This document shows, piece after piece, positions 18,702 through 37,487 of a stretch of 38,572 nucleotides of DNA; positions within the stretch are counted from its first letter, which is position 1, and every line of letters starts with the position of its first letter. Below the pieces are notes generated by a model that did no database searches, was not told where the DNA came from, and saw only the letters and a list, made by a program, of their open reading frames with translations. A program made the translations under genes and the position numbers. The stretch comes from an uncultured Bacilli bacterium (lineage in GTDB: Bacteria; Bacillota_I; Bacilli_A; RF39; UBA660), in assembly GCA_944331865.1 (NCBI GenBank), contig CALVIZ010000009.1, positions 1 to 38,572 on the forward strand, read 5' to 3'.

Positions 18702-19068
18702 TTTACAAAAATATTTAAATAGTGAATATCAAAAAGAACATGATGACACAGTATTTTTAACTAATGAAGAACTAGCTAAAATGAATCCTGCAACTGAGTT
18801 AGATATTAAAATGGCTGATTATTTGTCAGAATATGAAAAAAGAGAAGCACTACATAGATTAATATCTGAAAAAAACCAAGAGATTATTAATTTACAGCAA
18901 GATATAGCTGATCTAGAAGTATTAATTAATGATTGTGGAAATAATAGTATGTTAAAATCAGAATATCGTCATGATATAATGGAAGATTATGTAGCCATAA
19001 GACTTTTAAAAGATGAATTAAGAAGTTTAGAACAAAAGTTAAGTGAAGGTCATGGTAGAAGTAGATAA
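18694..19068 (+). CDS. Helical coiled-coil protein, unknown
   Basis: The protein is 124 residues and mostly helical. The middle and end have heptad-like Leu/Ile spacing (RLISEKNQEIINLQQDIADLEVLIN, AIRLLKDELRSLEQKL), so it may form a helical hairpin or dimer. It ends HGRSR, comparable to the GKGR tail of the unknown at 7598-8020, which has a similar size and hairpin prediction. It overlaps the secreted-protein gene by eight bases and the recombinase gene by 17, so it is translated between them. Function unknown. Confidence 0.65.
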   Translation: MDDLQKYLNSEYQKEHDDTVFLTNEELAKMNPATELDIKMADYLSEYEKREALHRLISEKNQEIINLQQDIADLEVLINDCGNNSMLKSEYRHDIMEDYVAIRLLKDELRSLEQKLSEGHGRSR

Positions 19069-19906
19069 ATTTTTAAATTATTTAAAAAAAGAATTAAATT
19101 ATTCTGAAAATACAATAAATAGTTATAAATTAGACCTAGATAACTTTTTTCTTTTTGTCAAGAAAAACAAAATAAACTATTTAAAACTAACAAGTGAAGA
19201 TATAAGAAATTATTTAAAATATCTAGATGAATTAATGTTAAAAAACACTACTATATCTAGAAAAATTAGTGCATTAAGAAGTTTTTATAATTATTTATTA
19301 AATAAAAAATTAATTGATTTTAATATTTTTAGCAATATTAGAAATCCTAAACTAGAAAAGAAGTTACCTAATTATTTAAATTATGAAGAGTTAGCCAAAA
19401 TATTAGATAGTATTGATACATCCAGTGAAGATGGTTTAAAAAATAGATTATTAATTGAAATGTTGTATGCAACTGGCTGTCGAGTAAGTGAAATAGCAAA
19501 TATTAAAATAGAAGATATTAATTTTAGTAATAATTCTATAAGGGTGATAGGGAAAGGAAATAAAGAAAGAATAGTTTATTTTGGAGAATATGCAAGATTT
19601 TATTTGAATAAATATATTGAAGGACATAAAAGAGAATATTTATTTGATAATAAAAATAATGAAAAATTAAATATTCATGAAATTGAATACATGGTTAAAG
19701 AAATTGTTAAAAATTTAGCATTAAAAACGCATGTAACCCCACATACATTAAGACATACATTTGCCACACATTTACTTAATAATGGTGCTGATATTAAAAC
19801 AGTTCAAGAATTATTAGGACATTCGAGTTTAAATACAACAGGAATATATACCCATGTATCAAATGCCCGAATTAAAGAAATATATTTAAAGACATTTAAC
19901 AGATAG
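19052..19906 (+). CDS. XerC/XerD-type tyrosine recombinase
   Basis: This is a 284-residue site-specific recombinase. It has the N-terminal SAM-like core-binding domain (NYSENTINSYKLDLDNFF...ISRKISALRSFYNYL) and a catalytic domain with R144 (GCRVSEI), K168 (GKGNKER), H231 and R234 (HTLRHTFATHLL), H257 (LGHSSL) and nucleophile Y266 (TTGIYTHV). The length and the absence of phage context suggest the housekeeping dimer-resolution enzyme, though XerC and XerD cannot be told apart here. The start is ATG 19052; GAAGGT is very close, so an upstream GTG at 19043 is also possible. Confidence 0.88.
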   Translation: MVEVDKFLNYLKKELNYSENTINSYKLDLDNFFLFVKKNKINYLKLTSEDIRNYLKYLDELMLKNTTISRKISALRSFYNYLLNKKLIDFNIFSNIRNPKLEKKLPNYLNYEELAKILDSIDTSSEDGLKNRLLIEMLYATGCRVSEIANIKIEDINFSNNSIRVIGKGNKERIVYFGEYARFYLNKYIEGHKREYLFDNKNNEKLNIHEIEYMVKEIVKNLALKTHVTPHTLRHTFATHLLNNGADIKTVQELLGHSSLNTTGIYTHVSNARIKEIYLKTFNR

Positions 19907-26730: not shown

Positions 26731-28035
26731 TTAAAAGTAGTTGTCCGTAATATTTACAGCCTTATTTTTGATTACTTGAGATAAATGCCCATACTTGTTT
26801 ACTGTTGTGTTATACACTTTATGTCTTACAAATTTTTGAATATGATATAATTCCATTCCTTCAGTCATCATTGTTGCTACAAATGTATGGCGAAGGTCAT
26901 ACATTCTAATTTCTGTAACTCCAGCAATTTGGCAAAATTTATGAAACTTTTTTCTTAGTGCTACATCTGAATAGGGTTTATTATAATTATAATTCCAAAA
27001 TATAATTGTATTTAGATCTAATTTCAAATCATTAATCAAAAAGTCTTTATAGCGTTTTATTTCTTCACAATGTTTTTCAGATAAATCAATATAGTCTGTA
27101 GACCATTCATTTTTTGTGGATTTTAAATAAGATGCTGGAATTATTATTTTTTCTCTTTCTTTAACAATATAATCTTTATCAAATCTATTTTTATTTCTAA
27201 GTTCATCAAGCGTTATTCTAAATTGATTAGCTATAGAATAAAGTGTATCTCCTTTTTTAACAATATATTCTTGGTCTTTATATTTGTTTGGATCATATTC
27301 AATAGAATGGTTTATTAAAAGTTTTTTTCTTTTAAAATCTATGCTATTCCAAGTTAAAGCTCTAATTTCTCCAACACGTTCACCTAATGCGAAACCAAAT
27401 AGTGTAAATATTTTTATAAGATAAGCATCTTTTTTTAAATTTAAATCATTTGAGTTAATTAACTCATCTATTTTTTGAAAGAATTTTTTTATTTCGCTTT
27501 GATTCCAATATTGCATTTCTTTATTTTCAATCTTATATTTTGCAATTTTTGCTATTGGATTATTAGCAACTAGATTGCTATCTACTAAATAATTATAAAA
27601 TGCTCTCAATTGTTTCATTATGTGATTTTTTTGTTTATTTGTAGTGTTTAACTCATCTATAAATTTGCTCCAAAATTCTTTATCACATCTATGTATATTT
27701 TTATTTATTTTTCCTTTTAAATGACAATTATAGTCTTTATTTTTTCTATTAATTGTATTAAATTCTAATTTTTTTATATATTTACAATAATCAATATATT
27801 TTTTCCATAATTCATCAAAATTTGATTTGTTTTCTTTTTCAATTTTTTTATTTTCTTTTATTGTTGGGTTATCTCTAATTTGAATTGCCTTTTTGATATC
27901 AAAAATTTTATTTCCATTTTCATCCTTGCTAATGCTTGTTTTTATTGGTGTGTTAATTATTATTATATAATTGTTATTCTTTGAATGCTTATATATGTTT
28001 TGATATCTCGTATTTTTATATATTTTTTTATTCAT
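26731..28035 (-). CDS. Prophage tyrosine integrase with an inserted LysM domain
   Basis: This is a site-specific integrase for prophage insertion, 434 residues from the ATG at plus 28033-28035; an in-frame GTG three codons earlier is possible and residue numbers here count from it. An N-terminal arm region precedes a core-binding domain (about 75-165) and the catalytic domain. The catalytic domain has R223 (GERVGEI), R385 in YDLRHTF, H408 (VRHK) and nucleophile Y418 (NKYGHL). In place of a short beta-hairpin turn, residues 258-303 form a LysM domain: YIVKKGDTLYSIANQF, ITLDELRNKN, IIIP. The usual catalytic-Lys strand resumes at STKNEW. The first His of HxxR is Tyr, a known variation. The ribosome binding site is weak. 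The gene reads toward the host junction, as usual at attL. Confidence 0.9.
   Translation of the reverse strand: MNKKIYKNTRYQNIYKHSKNNNYIIIINTPIKTSISKDENGNKIFDIKKAIQIRDNPTIKENKKIEKENKSNFDELWKKYIDYCKYIKKLEFNTINRKNKDYNCHLKGKINKNIHRCDKEFWSKFIDELNTTNKQKNHIMKQLRAFYNYLVDSNLVANNPIAKIAKYKIENKEMQYWNQSEIKKFFQKIDELINSNDLNLKKDAYLIKIFTLFGFALGERVGEIRALTWNSIDFKRKKLLINHSIEYDPNKYKDQEYIVKKGDTLYSIANQFRITLDELRNKNRFDKDYIVKEREKIIIPASYLKSTKNEWSTDYIDLSEKHCEEIKRYKDFLINDLKLDLNTIIFWNYNYNKPYSDVALRKKFHKFCQIAGVTEIRMYDLRHTFVATMMTEGMELYHIQKFVRHKVYNTTVNKYGHLSQVIKNKAVNITDNYF
27136..27273 (-). other. LysM domain embedded in the integrase catalytic domain
   Basis: The 46 residues encoded here start EYIVKKGDTLYSIANQF and end EKIIIP, the full beta-alpha-alpha-beta LysM pattern (YxVKxGDTL, SIA, ITLDEL, N, IIIP). 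The reading frame is continuous on both sides with recombinase sequence, so this is a domain insertion and not a separate gene. Confidence 0.85.
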
Positions 28036-28052
28036 TTTTATCACATCTTTCT

Positions 28053-28183: not shown

Positions 28184-28433
28184 ATGCATTCCAGGAATGT
28201 CCACAATTCTGACAAACATTTACTTTTTTGGCAACTGTTTTTATTTTCTTCCTTTTACCAATAAATATTGCTGCAAGTAATGCTGGTATTGTAAATACTA
28301 ACCATTTTACAAATATCCACCACCAGCCAATTAATAACCACCAAATAATACCATGACGTTTTGTAACTAATTGACTTTCAGTTACAATTTGGATATTTAC
28401 ATTATTGCTGCCACATTTTGGACAAGTAATCAT
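28182..28433 (-). CDS. Zinc-ribbon membrane protein of the lysogeny module
   Basis: The protein is 83 residues. An N-terminal CPKCGS and a C-terminal CQNCGHSW could together bind one zinc. Between them lies a hydrophobic, Trp-rich helical hairpin (IIWWLLIGWWWIFVKWLVFTIPALLAAIFI). Small membrane proteins in this position, between integrase and repressor, are sometimes superinfection-exclusion factors in phages of Gram-positives, but nothing in the sequence proves that. AAAGGAGGT gives a very strong ribosome binding site. It is probably expressed in the lysogen from the repressor promoter. Confidence 0.75.
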   Translation of the reverse strand: MITCPKCGSNNVNIQIVTESQLVTKRHGIIWWLLIGWWWIFVKWLVFTIPALLAAIFIGKRKKIKTVAKKVNVCQNCGHSWNA

Positions 28434-29592: not shown

Positions 29593-29647
29593 CTTGTTTC
29601 ACCCCGCTTTCTAAAGAATATTATAAGGGTTTTAATAAAAAAATACA

Positions 29648-29663
29648 ATAAGTCGGCTAAGAC
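29648..29663 (+). repeat. Inverted-repeat copy 2 (target-side segment)
   Basis: ATAAGTCGGCTAAGAC is the exact complement of the 28126-28141 segment. It lies about 40 bases upstream of the start codon of the membrane-protein gene at 29703 and can form a small GTC/GAC hairpin with loop GGCTAA. Confidence 0.85.
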
Positions 29664-29702
29664 GATTTAAATAAAAAAGATATAGGAAAGGATTTGATAA
29701 AA

Positions 29703-29891
29703 ATGATTAAAAAAAGAAGATTAAAAAGATGGGTTAGAATAGAAATTGGAGTAATAATTACTTTAATATTTTTAGGTATTCTAACTTATTTTATTGTCGA
29801 AGGAATTAACAGATTTAACGAATTAGCGAAAGCATGCGATTTGGATAGAGGATATACATGTTCATATTATGAAATTAATAATCGGAGGTAA
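29703..29891 (+). CDS. Small single-span membrane protein of the early region
   Basis: The protein is 62 residues: a very basic N terminus (IKKRRLKRWVR), one membrane helix (IGVIITLIFLGILTYFIV) and a short outer part with two cysteines ending GYTCSYYEI. The C-x-x-x-x-x-GYTCSYYE-like ending occurs in small proteins of Gram-positive phages, but no function is known to me. AGGAAAGGA is the ribosome binding site for ATG 29703; an in-frame TTG at 29694 is unlikely. The leader carries the 16-nt segment complementary to the small RNA at 28087, so the gene may be controlled by antisense pairing. Confidence 0.7.
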   Translation: MIKKRRLKRWVRIEIGVIITLIFLGILTYFIVEGINRFNELAKACDLDRGYTCSYYEINNRR

Positions 29892-29893
29892 TT

Positions 29894-30106
29894 ATGGTTG
29901 AAAAAGAGTATTATTCAGCTAAAGATATAGCAATAATTAGAGGCATTTGCAGATCATCAGCTTATAAAGAAATTGAAGAAATGAATATTGAAATGAAACA
30001 AGAATATCCAAATATTAAAATATTTGATAATTATATACCAATATGGTATTGGAATGAAAAAACTCGAAAAATAGTCATAAGTGAAAGTAATGATTTTAAA
30101 GAATAG
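29894..30106 (+). CDS. Excisionase-like or HTH small phage protein
   Basis: The protein is 70 residues beginning YYSAKDIAIIRGICRSSAYKEIEEMN, which fits the winged-helix or MerR-like HTH of excisionases and small phage regulators (a SAKDIAxxxGxSRSxAYxxI pattern). The rest (IPIWYWNEKTRKIVI) may be the wing. CGGAGGT precedes the ATG, and only two bases separate it from the membrane-protein gene, so the two are cotranscribed. A DNA-binding role, possibly excision, is likely but unproven. Confidence 0.65.
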   Translation: MVEKEYYSAKDIAIIRGICRSSAYKEIEEMNIEMKQEYPNIKIFDNYIPIWYWNEKTRKIVISESNDFKE

Positions 30107-30174
30107 AATTTTTAAAATTAGAATAGCTTTTAAAATGAAACAATTCTATCTTTAAATTGCATGGAAGAAAATCA

Positions 30175-30180
30175 TATAAT
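30175..30180 (+). promoter_or_regulatory. Candidate -10 box before the structured leader
   Basis: TATAAT lies so that transcription would begin near 30186-30188, immediately before the first hairpin. The -35 region (about 30152) is weak, so activation or read-through from the early promoter may matter. Confidence 0.4.
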
Positions 30181-30190
30181 CAATAATTTT

Positions 30191-30278
30191 CGAGGGCATA
30201 GTGATGAATGCATAGTGGTGTTATCCTAGGCTAAAGTATCACCTCCTTTCTGCCTATGCATTCATCGTTATGCTCTCG
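30191..30278 (+). ncRNA. RNA hairpin with an anti-Shine-Dalgarno loop
   Basis: Bases 30191-30215 pair with 30254-30278 in an uninterrupted 25-bp stem that uses three G-U pairs on the plus strand. These would be A-C mismatches on the minus strand, so the plus-strand RNA is the functional form. The 38-base loop contains ATCACCTCCTTTCT (30238-30251), identical to the 3' tail of Firmicutes 16S rRNA that binds ribosome binding sites. An inner GGTG/CACC helix can cover part of it. It lies in the 290-base gap before the replication gene; nothing there codes. Confidence 0.7.
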
Positions 30279-30287
30279 AGAAAAAAG

Positions 30288-30367
30288 TTCCTGGATATAT
30301 AGAGGTTTAAATTAATTTATCACACCGAAATCTATCTAACCAATTTAAACCTCTATATATCCAGGAA
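30288..30367 (+). ncRNA. Perfect 26-bp hairpin in the replication-gene leader
   Basis: Bases 30288-30313 and 30342-30367 are exact inverted repeats of 26 bp around a 28-base loop. The stem starts nine bases after the anti-Shine-Dalgarno hairpin and ends 21 bases before the AGGAGG of the next gene. No T run follows, so it is not a terminator. It could be a leader RNA element, a double-stranded origin structure or a protein-binding site. Confidence 0.65.
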
Positions 30368-30398
30368 AACTAGGGGGTAAAAAATTTTAGGAGGAAAA

Positions 30399-31235
30399 AT
30401 GGATAAAACTAAATATTGGTTAAAATTCTATAAAGATTTTTTAAAAACACCCCAAATGCGCGTGATACGAAAAATGCCAAATGGTACTGAATATTTGCTT
30501 CTTTATATTTCTTTAATGTTGGAAAGTATAGAATTTGCTGGTCATTTGCGATTTACCGAAACAATTCCATATAATGACGAAATGTTAGCCAGCATAACTG
30601 ATACAAATATAGATATTGTTCGTTCTGGAATGACAATATTTGAAGAATTAGGAATGATTCAAATATTATCAGATAAAACCATATTTTTACCTGATGTTCC
30701 TAAATTAACAGGTAAAGAAAGTGAATCGGCTGCTCGTGTTCGGAAATGGAGATTGAAACATAAGGAAAACTTAAAATTGTTACAGTGTAACGATGATGTA
30801 ACTACATGTAACGGTGATGTACAAAATAGTAACGACAATATAGAAGAAGAAATAGAAATAGATAAAGAAATAGATAAAGAAATAGATATAGATATAGATA
30901 TAGATAATTTATATTCATATTTAGAAGAGAATTATGGAAGAACGATTTGCCAAATCGAGTACAACAAACTAAATGAATTTGTTAAATGCTTTGAACTCGA
31001 GGTAATTAAACGAGCAATTAAAATTTCAGTCTTTAATAATGTTAAGAATATCGCTTATCTTGAAGGTATTCTGAATAACTGGAAAGCAAAAGGGATTACA
31101 AAATTAAGCGATTTCCCTAAAAATGAAAAATCACGAGATGATCCAACAGAAGATATATCAAATGAATTGCTGGAATATGATTGGCTAAATGATGAAGGAG
31201 TTGATGAAGATGCTAGTTACCAAAGCAAAACATAA
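30399..31235 (+). CDS. Phage replisome organizer with DnaD-like domain
   Basis: This is the likely replication initiator, 278 residues. The N-terminal domain (YWLKFYKDFLKTPQMRVIRKMPNG...LLYISLMLES...YNDEMLASITDTNIDIVRSGMTIFEELGMI) is the phage replisome organizer winged-helix domain, about 1-120. A charged linker follows that includes IDKEIDKEIDIDIDIDN (about 152-168), then a DnaD-like helical domain (LEENYGRTICQIEYNKLNEF...AYLEGILNNWKAKG) that recruits the host helicase loader. An acidic tail ends the protein. AGGAGG lies five bases before the ATG, preceded by the two-hairpin leader. Confidence 0.88.
   Translation: MDKTKYWLKFYKDFLKTPQMRVIRKMPNGTEYLLLYISLMLESIEFAGHLRFTETIPYNDEMLASITDTNIDIVRSGMTIFEELGMIQILSDKTIFLPDVPKLTGKESESAARVRKWRLKHKENLKLLQCNDDVTTCNGDVQNSNDNIEEEIEIDKEIDKEIDIDIDIDNLYSYLEENYGRTICQIEYNKLNEFVKCFELEVIKRAIKISVFNNVKNIAYLEGILNNWKAKGITKLSDFPKNEKSRDDPTEDISNELLEYDWLNDEGVDEDASYQSKT
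30861..30906 (+). repeat. Tandem AT-rich repeats in the replisome organizer gene (possible origin)
   Basis: Two copies of the 12-mer GATAAAGAAATA (30861-30872, 30873-30884) are followed by three GATATA units. They encode the Ile/Asp/Glu/Lys linker. Phage origins are often internal to the initiator gene and include iterons and an AT-rich unwinding region, so this is a candidate; it may also be only a linker-encoding microsatellite. Confidence 0.45.
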
Positions 31236-31993: not shown

Positions 31994-32192
31994 ATGTGAT
32001 TTATGTCATAAAATAACTGAGCCTAGAGAAAAATTAACAAAATATCCAATAAAATATCGTGATAAAATTTATCAACATGATCATCCATTTAAAAAAAATC
32101 AGGTAATTACTAGTTACGGAAAAGAAATAGTTAAAGAAATAAATGTTTGTGAAAAATGTGCTGAAGAATTAAAAAATGGCATCATATCATAG
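31986..32192 (+). CDS. Small zinc-finger phage protein
   Basis: The protein is 68 residues. FKCDLCHKI at the N terminus and VCEKCAEEL near the C terminus provide CxxC pairs, with a His in YQHDHPF between them, so it probably binds one zinc. AAGGAG lies before ATG 31986, inside the 3' end of the previous gene. Its own 3' end overlaps the recombinase gene by 17 bases. Function unknown; small zinc proteins of this kind are common in early regions of Gram-positive phages. Confidence 0.65.
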   Translation: MFKCDLCHKITEPREKLTKYPIKYRDKIYQHDHPFKKNQVITSYGKEIVKEINVCEKCAEELKNGIIS

Positions 32193-32847
32193 AAGAATCA
32201 AAGCTGATTCTGGAAAAGATAAAACATTACCGATAAAAGATAATAAACAATTAAATCGAGTAATGGACTATTTAAGAGTACAAATCGATTTAGCAAAAAG
32301 TGATATAAAAATTTATCAAGCACATAGGAATTATATTTTATTTCTTATAGGTTTTAATACAGCTTTTAGAGCAGAGGATTTATTGCAACTTAAAGTAAAA
32401 GATGTCATAAAGGGATATATTTCAATTAAAGAAAATAAAACAGGCAAATGGCAGCATTTCAAAATGAATAAGAACCTCCATGAAGAGATATTAGAATATA
32501 TTAACAAATATCAGTTAAAAGATAATCAGTATTTGTTTATGGGACAAAAGAAAAAAGATACACATAATGGTATTACTGTAGATGTTATTTACCCAATTAC
32601 TAGACAAAATTGTCAAAATACAATATTTCCTAAAGTTATTAAAGCGTGTGGAATTGATTTTACATTTGGACTTCATAGCTTAAGGAAAACATTTGGATAT
32701 CAATGGATAAAAAATGGTGGGAATTTAATAACTCTTATGAAAATGTATAATCATGAAGAACCAGCTACAACTCTTTTATACGTAATGTGGGATACCAAAG
32801 ATATTGATGATGCTAGAGAGTCAATATATATTGGAGGTAAAAAATGA
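32176..32847 (+). CDS. Second phage tyrosine recombinase without a separate core-binding domain
   Basis: The protein is 223 residues, essentially only a catalytic domain. Residues matching the recombinase set are R65 (TAFRAEDLL), K88/K91 (ENKTGKWQHF), H167 and R170 (LHSLRKTFGYQ), H193 (MYNHEEPATT) and Y202 (LLYVMW). The N-terminal SAM-like domain is missing and replaced by about 45 residues of charged sequence. It is clearly different from the integrase at the prophage end. It may resolve dimers, act on an internal inversion site, or serve phage replication. It overlaps the next gene by four bases. Confidence 0.82.
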   Translation: MASYHRRIKADSGKDKTLPIKDNKQLNRVMDYLRVQIDLAKSDIKIYQAHRNYILFLIGFNTAFRAEDLLQLKVKDVIKGYISIKENKTGKWQHFKMNKNLHEEILEYINKYQLKDNQYLFMGQKKKDTHNGITVDVIYPITRQNCQNTIFPKVIKACGIDFTFGLHSLRKTFGYQWIKNGGNLITLMKMYNHEEPATTLLYVMWDTKDIDDARESIYIGGKK

Positions 32848-33410
32848 GTGATCGAGAAAAAGAAGAAATGTTTTTGAAAAATAAAATTTATATCTATTGG
32901 TATATAAAAAAATTGGGTCTAAAATCTATGGGTGAAGAATTATATGGTGCTGGTTTACTTGGCTTAGTTAGTGCAATTAATTCATATGATCCTAATAAAC
33001 CAAATAAAGAAAACACTTATTTTACTAAATGTATAATTAATAGCATAAATAGATATTTATATCTTCAAAATATGCCTAAAAGAAAAAATGATAAAAAAAT
33101 TGTAAGTTTAGATAAACCAATCAATAATTATGAAAATTGTTCTTTATTAGATGTAATTAGTAGTGATGATAATGTTGAAGAAATAGTTGAAAATAAAGAA
33201 CGAATAAATATTTTAATGGAAGTAATAAACGAATTATCATCAAGCGACAAAAATATAATTTTAAAATATTTTGGAATTAATTGCGATAGGATGAACGAAA
33301 GAGAAATCGCAAAGGAATACAATGTTTCAAAACAAGCAATATCATATAAAAAAAATAGGATATTAAAAATTCTTAAAAATAAATTAATTGTAAGAAAATT
33401 TGAATTTTAG
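32844..33410 (+). CDS. Phage-encoded sigma-70-like factor
   Basis: The protein is 188 residues with a region-2-like N-terminal part (YWYIKKLGLKSMGEELYGAGLLGLVSAINSYDP...FTKCIINSINRYL) and a region-4 HTH at the end (ELSSSDKNIILKYFGINCDRMNEREIAKEYNVSKQAISYKKNRILKIL). This is the architecture of small sigma factors that redirect RNA polymerase to phage promoters. It is coupled to the recombinase by a four-base ATGA overlap. The promoters it recognises are not identified; the middle/late promoters of this phage are candidates. Confidence 0.82.
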   Translation: MSDREKEEMFLKNKIYIYWYIKKLGLKSMGEELYGAGLLGLVSAINSYDPNKPNKENTYFTKCIINSINRYLYLQNMPKRKNDKKIVSLDKPINNYENCSLLDVISSDDNVEEIVENKERINILMEVINELSSSDKNIILKYFGINCDRMNEREIAKEYNVSKQAISYKKNRILKILKNKLIVRKFEF

Positions 33411-36812: not shown

Positions 36813-36913
36813 AAATAATTTATACTGGAAATTACACATTAAGTGATTATGCAATTTTTATACTAATTATAGTTTTAATTTACATTTATTGGAGGAATAA
36901 AAAGGATGATTAA
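36809..36913 (+). CDS. Short membrane peptide, 34 residues
   Basis: The ORF encodes MKIIYTGNYTLSDYAIFILI and a further hydrophobic part (IVLIYIYW) with a basic/acidic tail (RNKKDD), a single-span membrane peptide. It begins in an ATGA overlap with the previous ORF and its end overlaps the late-regulator start by eight bases; the TTGGAGGA in its last codons is the ribosome binding site of that gene. The coupling supports real translation. Confidence 0.6.
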   Translation: MKIIYTGNYTLSDYAIFILIIVLIYIYWRNKKDD

Positions 36914-37487
36914 CGAATTAGAAGAATTAAAGAAAGAAAATGAAAATTTAAGAAACAAAATTAATAATGAATATATTAATAAAAAGGATATAACTAAAAC
37001 CATTATTTCCGAACTTGTAAGACTAAAAATTTTGAAACCAAACGCTGATCCATTTGGAAGTACAAAAAATTTGTTAGAAAATTTCAATAAACTGGATATT
37101 TCTATAAATCATCTAAATTCGGAGATAAAAAAACTCGAAGCTAGTAAAAACGAATGGGATGGTCCAAGATTTAAGTCGACTAGCATAGTTCAAAACGTAT
37201 CACCTTCATTAAAAACATTAGATATCATTGATAATAGAATTTCTGATTTGAAACAGATTATTGAAAAAATATCTTGCTATCAATCACAAATAAGGGCTGT
37301 TATAAATACTCTTCCAGCAACTGATAAAAAATTAATAGAAGATTTTTACTTTAAAAAGATTGATGTTGTTGATATTTCAATTGAACTTGGATGTGATCAA
37401 TCAACTACTTATAGAAAAGTAAATAAGGTCATAGATAAGATCAAAATTGAATTATTCCCAGGAAAATATATCGATTCATTAATATAA
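36906..37487 (+). CDS. ArpU/RinA-type late transcription regulator (sigma-70 region-4-like)
   Basis: The protein is 193 residues. An N-terminal coiled coil (LEELKKENENLRNKI) and a helical middle are followed by a C-terminal HTH: INTLPATDKKLIEDFYFKKIDVVDISIELGCDQSTTYRKVNKVIDKI. Sequence and position, the last gene before the late promoter and the morphogenesis genes, match the ArpU/RinA/DUF1492 late activators of Gram-positive phages. TTGGAGGA lies upstream. It probably switches on the promoter at 37516-37544 or allows passage through the terminator that follows. Confidence 0.78.
   Translation: MINELEELKKENENLRNKINNEYINKKDITKTIISELVRLKILKPNADPFGSTKNLLENFNKLDISINHLNSEIKKLEASKNEWDGPRFKSTSIVQNVSPSLKTLDIIDNRISDLKQIIEKISCYQSQIRAVINTLPATDKKLIEDFYFKKIDVVDISIELGCDQSTTYRKVNKVIDKIKIELFPGKYIDSLI

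Follow-up and report, generated by a model that had tools for sequence, protein, structure and literature searches.

Why should a prophage-like element carry, just ahead of its replication gene, an RNA hairpin whose loop copies the 3' tail of 16S rRNA? The stretch of DNA that we analysed (the window, 38,572 nucleotides) is contig 9 of a 1.19-Mb bacterial genome. Within it, a prophage-like element starts at about 26.7 kb and comprises a tyrosine integrase, a pair of HTH regulators, small genes and a replisome organiser (rep), whose nearest named kin are in uncultured gut Bacilli MAGs, for example Pelethosoma. A 292-nt non-coding leader separates the replisome-organiser gene from the preceding 70-aa gene and contains, from 5' to 3', hairpin 1 (HP1), hairpin 2 (HP2), AGGGGG (30372) and AGGAGG (30389), followed by the ATG at 30399. 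The features of this region, some of them defined by comparison with two further loci, L023 and L024, are as follows.

30151-30180, plus strand: possible promoter TTTAAA-N18-TATAAT, weak (10 of 12 consensus matches), from which the transcript would start at the foot of HP1.
30187-30282, plus strand: HP1, 29 contiguous pairs (G-U allowed) with a 38-nt loop; arms at 30187-30215 and 30254-30282, 25-bp core at 30191-30278.
30217-30220, plus strand: GGTG, able in predicted folds to pair with CACC of the loop as a small inner helix; present in all three loci.
30238-30251, plus strand: anti-Shine-Dalgarno (anti-SD) segment of loop 1, ATCACCTCCTTTCT, which copies the 3' tail of 16S rRNA; 14-nt identity with the 16S tail of the same genus (L297), with its first 13 nt unchanged in L023 and L024.
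30288-30367, plus strand: HP2, a perfect 26-bp stem with a 28-nt loop (z -9.6).
30315-30325, plus strand: conserved loop-2 motif ATTTATCACAC (ATTTGTCACAC in L024), from the three-locus alignment.
30372-30377, plus strand: AGGGGG, retained in all three leaders (L024: CACAGGGGG); pairs over 6-7 nt with loop 1.
30389-30394, plus strand: AGGAGG, the Shine-Dalgarno (SD) sequence of the replisome-organiser gene; 6-nt pairing with loop 1, predicted duplex -10.2 kcal/mol.
30399-31235, plus strand: replisome organiser / DnaD-like helicase loader (rep), 278 aa; Phage_rep_org_N 5e-26, DnaB_2 3.7e-13; phrog_186 and phrog_5968.

Promoter-like sites around 30151-30180 were in no excess over shuffles; ATCATATAATCAATAATTTTCGAGGG, from the promoter region, is retained in L023, immediately 3' of an indel. 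L023 (282-490) exceeds the window by about 100 nt upstream of HP1, where another hairpin may form (AAAATTTCTTTCC/GGAAGAAATTTT). The element has two tyrosine-recombinase genes, at 26731-28044 and 32176-32847, the second 82% identical in L024; a third integrase-like gene (19043-19906) lies outside it. The product of the first (minus strand, 437 aa) has an unusual insertion, a LysM domain (residues 260-303, E 4e-10) inside the catalytic-domain match (194-422). Two sigma-factor-like or transcription-regulator proteins are encoded in the early region (32844-33410 and 36906-37487; phrog_351 and phrog_36), and tandem ATAGAW-type repeats within the replisome-organiser gene (30840-30899) recall the origin iterons of phage replication genes.

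A sequence-only reading of this DNA had described a 25-bp stem with a 38-nt loop at 30191-30278. These coordinates were correct, and the 25 bp are the core of the 29-pair stem. HP1 folds at -44.2 kcal/mol (z -7.8), and none of 200 shuffles was equally good. HP2, absent from that reading, belongs to the same element. The two hairpins have the longest stems in the 38.6-kb window, HP1 being the longest of all; the next is 17 bp, and the longest in 10 first-order Markov shuffles of the window was 19 bp. The claimed 14-nt identity with the 16S 3' tail was borne out by the 16S gene of the same genus (L297): it ends in ...GGATCACCTCCTTTCTATGG, so the match is genuine in this lineage. In the assembly that contains the window, only the 5' part of the 16S gene is present. 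The expected count of the 13-mer core is 0.0008 per window and 2e-8 per 38-nt loop, figures that are post hoc in that any striking motif would have been reported. In predicted folds of both the window and L024, CUCCUUUC is unpaired, as is expected of an anti-SD regulatory RNA with an unpaired, C-rich, SD-complementary segment.

The whole two-hairpin leader is common to the window, L023 and L024. The replisome organiser of L023 is 93% identical in amino acids to that of the window. L024 is from another genus, Pelethosoma merdigallinarum, and its sequence is that of genome G482/L248; the rep protein of L024 is 66% identical, and the locus is syntenic with the window, five neighbouring proteins being 58-82% identical. 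Stem lengths are similar across loci (HP1 26-29 bp, HP2 26-27 bp). Across the three loci, 19 stem pairs (11 of 25 in HP1 and 8 of 25 in HP2) were altered on both sides yet still paired, and all alignment cells of HP2 (100%) were paired; GGTG of L023 sits one column off in the alignment and is scored as unpaired there in this count. None of 500 column shuffles gave covariation as high, and no slid partner came close to these counts. Compensatory change 5' of orthologous, syntenic genes, as in a cis-acting structured mRNA leader, was found in three sequences from two lineages.

Four segments are unchanged in all three leaders: ATCACCTCCTTTC (the 13-nt anti-SD of loop 1), UCACAC (loop 2), the GGGGG run, and AGGAGGAAAAATG with AGGAGG. 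Between the leaders of the window and L024, the longest stretch of identity is the 13-mer. Its length alone is not notable, since A/T low-complexity matches in shuffles can be equally long and the phage pair shares stretches of 11-16 nt near other genes; it is notable because of its composition and place. Homologues that kept the stem and lost the loop would have spoken against the sequence-only reading. The opposite was seen: the stems of L024 are largely rewritten with compensation, and 13 loop nucleotides are identical. Wobbles occupy seven independent positions within the compared stems, and all are G-U in the plus sense with none A-C, an outcome with about 1% probability under random polarity. 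The claim that HP1 is stable only as plus-strand RNA is backed in its plus sense by this polarity, but "only" was overstated: as RNA, the whole leader folds at -77 kcal/mol on the minus strand against -81 kcal/mol on the plus strand, and the minus strand also folds as DNA.

Sequence comparison establishes tandem hairpins of 26-29 bp, compensatory changes, plus-strand wobble polarity and a conserved copy of the 16S tail in loop 1. Since the stems have changed with pairing kept, and loop motifs and wobble polarity are kept as well, these results point to a conserved leader RNA rather than to chance, and very probably the two-hairpin leader is a genuine RNA element under selection. Conservation of the loop appears strong, on a small base of three sequences from two lineages that does not yet amount to a profile.

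A covariance search, proposed in the sequence-only reading, found a homologous leader in one further genome: in about 1,000 genome searches under strict filters, the HP1 model matched only the window's genome and G482 (L024). The samples, which overlap, were 386 genomes of the family, 395 of the class and 250 of the phylum. Motif scans of IMG/VR for loop 1, for loop 1 plus loop 2 at three spacings, and for loop 2 plus AGGGGG plus AGGAGG returned matches without the stem (for loop 1, among the matches listed). Comparison by blastn with phage and plasmid records gave no copies of the element, and IMG/VR protein searches with rep gave just distant relatives (33-34% identity), none with the alignment. 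Neither the rep homologues L249-L251 (53-60% identity over the N-terminal part) nor more distant ones have long hairpins or the loop, and six named phage relatives, streptococcal and others, have no long hairpin before the rep gene and no anti-SD loop. The parts thus occur as a set. One of these homologues, L251 (genome G099; rep 53% identical in amino acids), has three short hairpins (13 bp or less) in its leader and no anti-SD loop; structured rep leaders may be commoner than the two-hairpin element. Either the element is rare and belongs to a phage group within this family of gut Bacilli with small genomes, or it has diverged beyond our searches.

Several familiar identities were examined for the locus. 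A leader peptide in HP1 (ATG AAT GCA TAG in the window) was rejected, as it is not conserved in L023, and so was a minus-strand SD serving an antisense gene, there being no start codon at the usual spacing in the window. An intrinsic terminator was rejected for want of a U-tract, and 29600-30460 holds no terminator-like site. No tRNA or tmRNA was detected. Kissing between loops 1 and 2 was examined by eye: complementarity of 4-5 nt occurs in single loci, none of it retained across lineages.

What, then, might the loop do? We favour, with somewhat less than even confidence, a conserved structured 5' leader of the prophage replisome-organiser mRNA in which the anti-SD loop would control translation initiation. 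Loop 1 would be transcribed ahead of the rep ribosome-binding site and would pair in cis with AGGGGG, AGGAGG or both, in direct competition with the anti-SD of the 30S subunit. HP2 would bring the site near loop 1, because both stems are nearly equal in length in both lineages. By a rough estimate, which sets a stem of about 75-80 angstrom against at least 14 single-stranded nucleotides plus HP2, a pseudoknot that joins loop 1 to the purine sites across HP2 would be sterically possible. Synthesis of Rep would stay low until the loop was cleaved (RNase III is suited to stems this long), occupied by another RNA or a protein, or outcompeted by free 30S subunits, and the start of phage replication could thereby be tied to a host or phage signal. 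We place control in cis first because the element is associated with rep, the G-run next to HP2 is conserved and the two stems are nearly equal in length. Consistent with it, rep follows the leader directly in both lineages, whose early regions are syntenic, and each purine site can base-pair with loop 1; the predicted duplex of loop 1 with AGGGGG is -10.7 kcal/mol in the window and -9.4 kcal/mol in L024. The sequence-only reading had proposed that the loop could bind ribosome-binding sites, the AGGAGG of rep among them, as a ribosome mimic or as a translational switch: the 6-nt complementarity is there, but it does not decide between the two.

Against control in cis stands the extent of the conservation. 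Being a copy of the 16S tail, loop 1 can pair with any SD, and the rep SD ranks 20th of the 48 start sites in the window by predicted duplex energy with it. Each cis site pairs with 6-7 of the 13 conserved loop bases, and about 8 of 13 are accounted for when the inner GGUG/CACC helix is included. The cis model needs CCUCCU and this inner helix alone and leaves AU and UUC of the 13-mer unexplained, so that loop conservation exceeds what the cis targets require; the independent lineages, moreover, are only two. A trans-acting antisense RNA or a tail-reading protein would explain more of the 13 bases, and our weights for these three readings, in descending order, were therefore set with this in mind.

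That the hairpin region is cut from the transcript, its loop blocking the ribosome-binding sites on further mRNAs of the phage or the host in the manner of P1 c4 or S. aureus RNAIII, we regard as unlikely. Phage antisense RNAs of such a type exist (c4, PMC12197685), and conservation of the full 13-nt tail copy would favour extended SD targets (GAAAGGAGGUGAU). One candidate is a zinc-ribbon gene near the lysogeny genes, at 28433 (minus strand), whose SD AAAGGAGGT is predicted to pair at -17.3 kcal/mol, better than the rep SD; a zinc-ribbon-like gene of L024 has the SD GGAGGTGA, predicted at -15.2 kcal/mol. But any strong SD will pair well with such a tail copy, and the two genes have no detectable homology to each other, so they demonstrate no conserved, specific target in trans. 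Nor does a terminator-like site follow the hairpins (29600-30460), as it would in a separate small RNA with its own terminator, although a processed fragment is compatible with this. Less likely again is a decoy role, in which a tail-reading protein (bS21 or Era, else YbeY or S1) would take loop 1 for the 3' end of 16S rRNA and would then switch rep or be titrated. In OLE RNA a CCUCCU anti-SD mimic lies in the region bound by bS21 (PMC12054373), and the same sequence feature is present in loop 1 as a candidate binding site. Era recognises GAUCA and CCUCC (PMC10582724); AUCACCUCC is fully conserved in the leader, and (A/G)UCAC is repeated in the second loop. However, where the Era site has G before AUCA, the window has U and L024 has A; no counterpart of helix 45, after which GAUCA and CCUCC stand in the Era site, was seen, and neither bS21 nor Era explains the conservation of UUUC.

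The inverted repeats might instead act at the DNA level, in single strands or as a cruciform, for instance within a replication origin beside the replisome organiser. They do adjoin a replication gene and fold on the minus strand too, but the G-U polarity favours plus-strand RNA, the order and sense of the anti-SD loop, AGGGGG and AGGAGG are retained, and the origin-like direct repeats are elsewhere, inside the gene at 30840-30899; we consider such a role improbable. Viral contigs often hold reverse-complemented SDs, which makes an ordinary hairpin that happens to contain one conceivable. Yet more than 200 other distinct ATCACCTCCTTT sites, among the matches listed, include none in a comparable hairpin, the expectation for the loop is minute, and the minus-strand SD has no suitably spaced start codon in the window. 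Stem compensation and loop conservation in a second lineage practically refute chance, which we hold to be most improbable.

It is possible, if on the doubtful side, that the leader represents a new class of RNA, in which a near-full copy of the host 16S 3' tail is read as a ribosome by mRNAs, in competition with the 30S subunit, or by an rRNA-tail-binding protein, and so times phage replication. If confirmed, this would mean that phage replication in small-genome gut Bacilli is gated by an RNA mimicking the ribosome's message-recognition tail. It would also provide a phage example of rRNA-tail mimicry, one that makes SD pairing and engagement of a tail-binding protein directly testable against each other.

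In SD-sequestering leaders, such as RNA thermometers and ribosomal-protein leaders, 5' structure can hide the SD of a downstream gene, and the anti-SD strand normally lies within a stem. Here, by contrast, the anti-SD copies rRNA and occupies a loop, about 140 nt upstream. The sequence-only reading knew of no described element of exactly this form. Rfam release 15 (4227 families) gave no match in a cmscan of the window at gathering score, and in the open-access literature we found no structured replisome-organiser leader; related RNAs do exist, however, namely OLE (PMC12054373), RNAIII and CyaR (PMC2837412) and csRNAs (PMC3091779). Among anti-SD mimics, the open-access literature yielded OLE RNA as the one relevant case. 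Its CCUCCU mimic, in P6, binds ribosomal protein bS21, and it is likewise a non-rRNA RNA carrying the 16S anti-SD sequence (PMC12054373). Unlike the present leader, OLE is a bacterial RNA of about 600 nt with CCUCCU paired to an SD-like strand in a stem, whereas here 13-14 nt of the tail occupy the loop of a 26-29-bp phage hairpin before a replication gene. The P1/P7 c4 antisense RNA (PMC12197685) is also a phage RNA with loops complementary to a ribosome-binding region, but it targets ant mRNA, while this leader has the generic 16S tail and precedes a replisome-organiser gene. S. aureus RNAIII, with its C-rich loops, E. coli CyaR (PMC2837412) and the streptococcal csRNAs (PMC3091779) share an unpaired anti-SD able to block translation initiation; they act in trans, from their own genes and with short motifs, whereas the leader lies within an mRNA and holds nearly the whole 16S tail. 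Anti-SD loops themselves were already known, and what is new here is a phage mRNA leader, itself conserved, whose hairpin loop reproduces the 16S tail almost in full.
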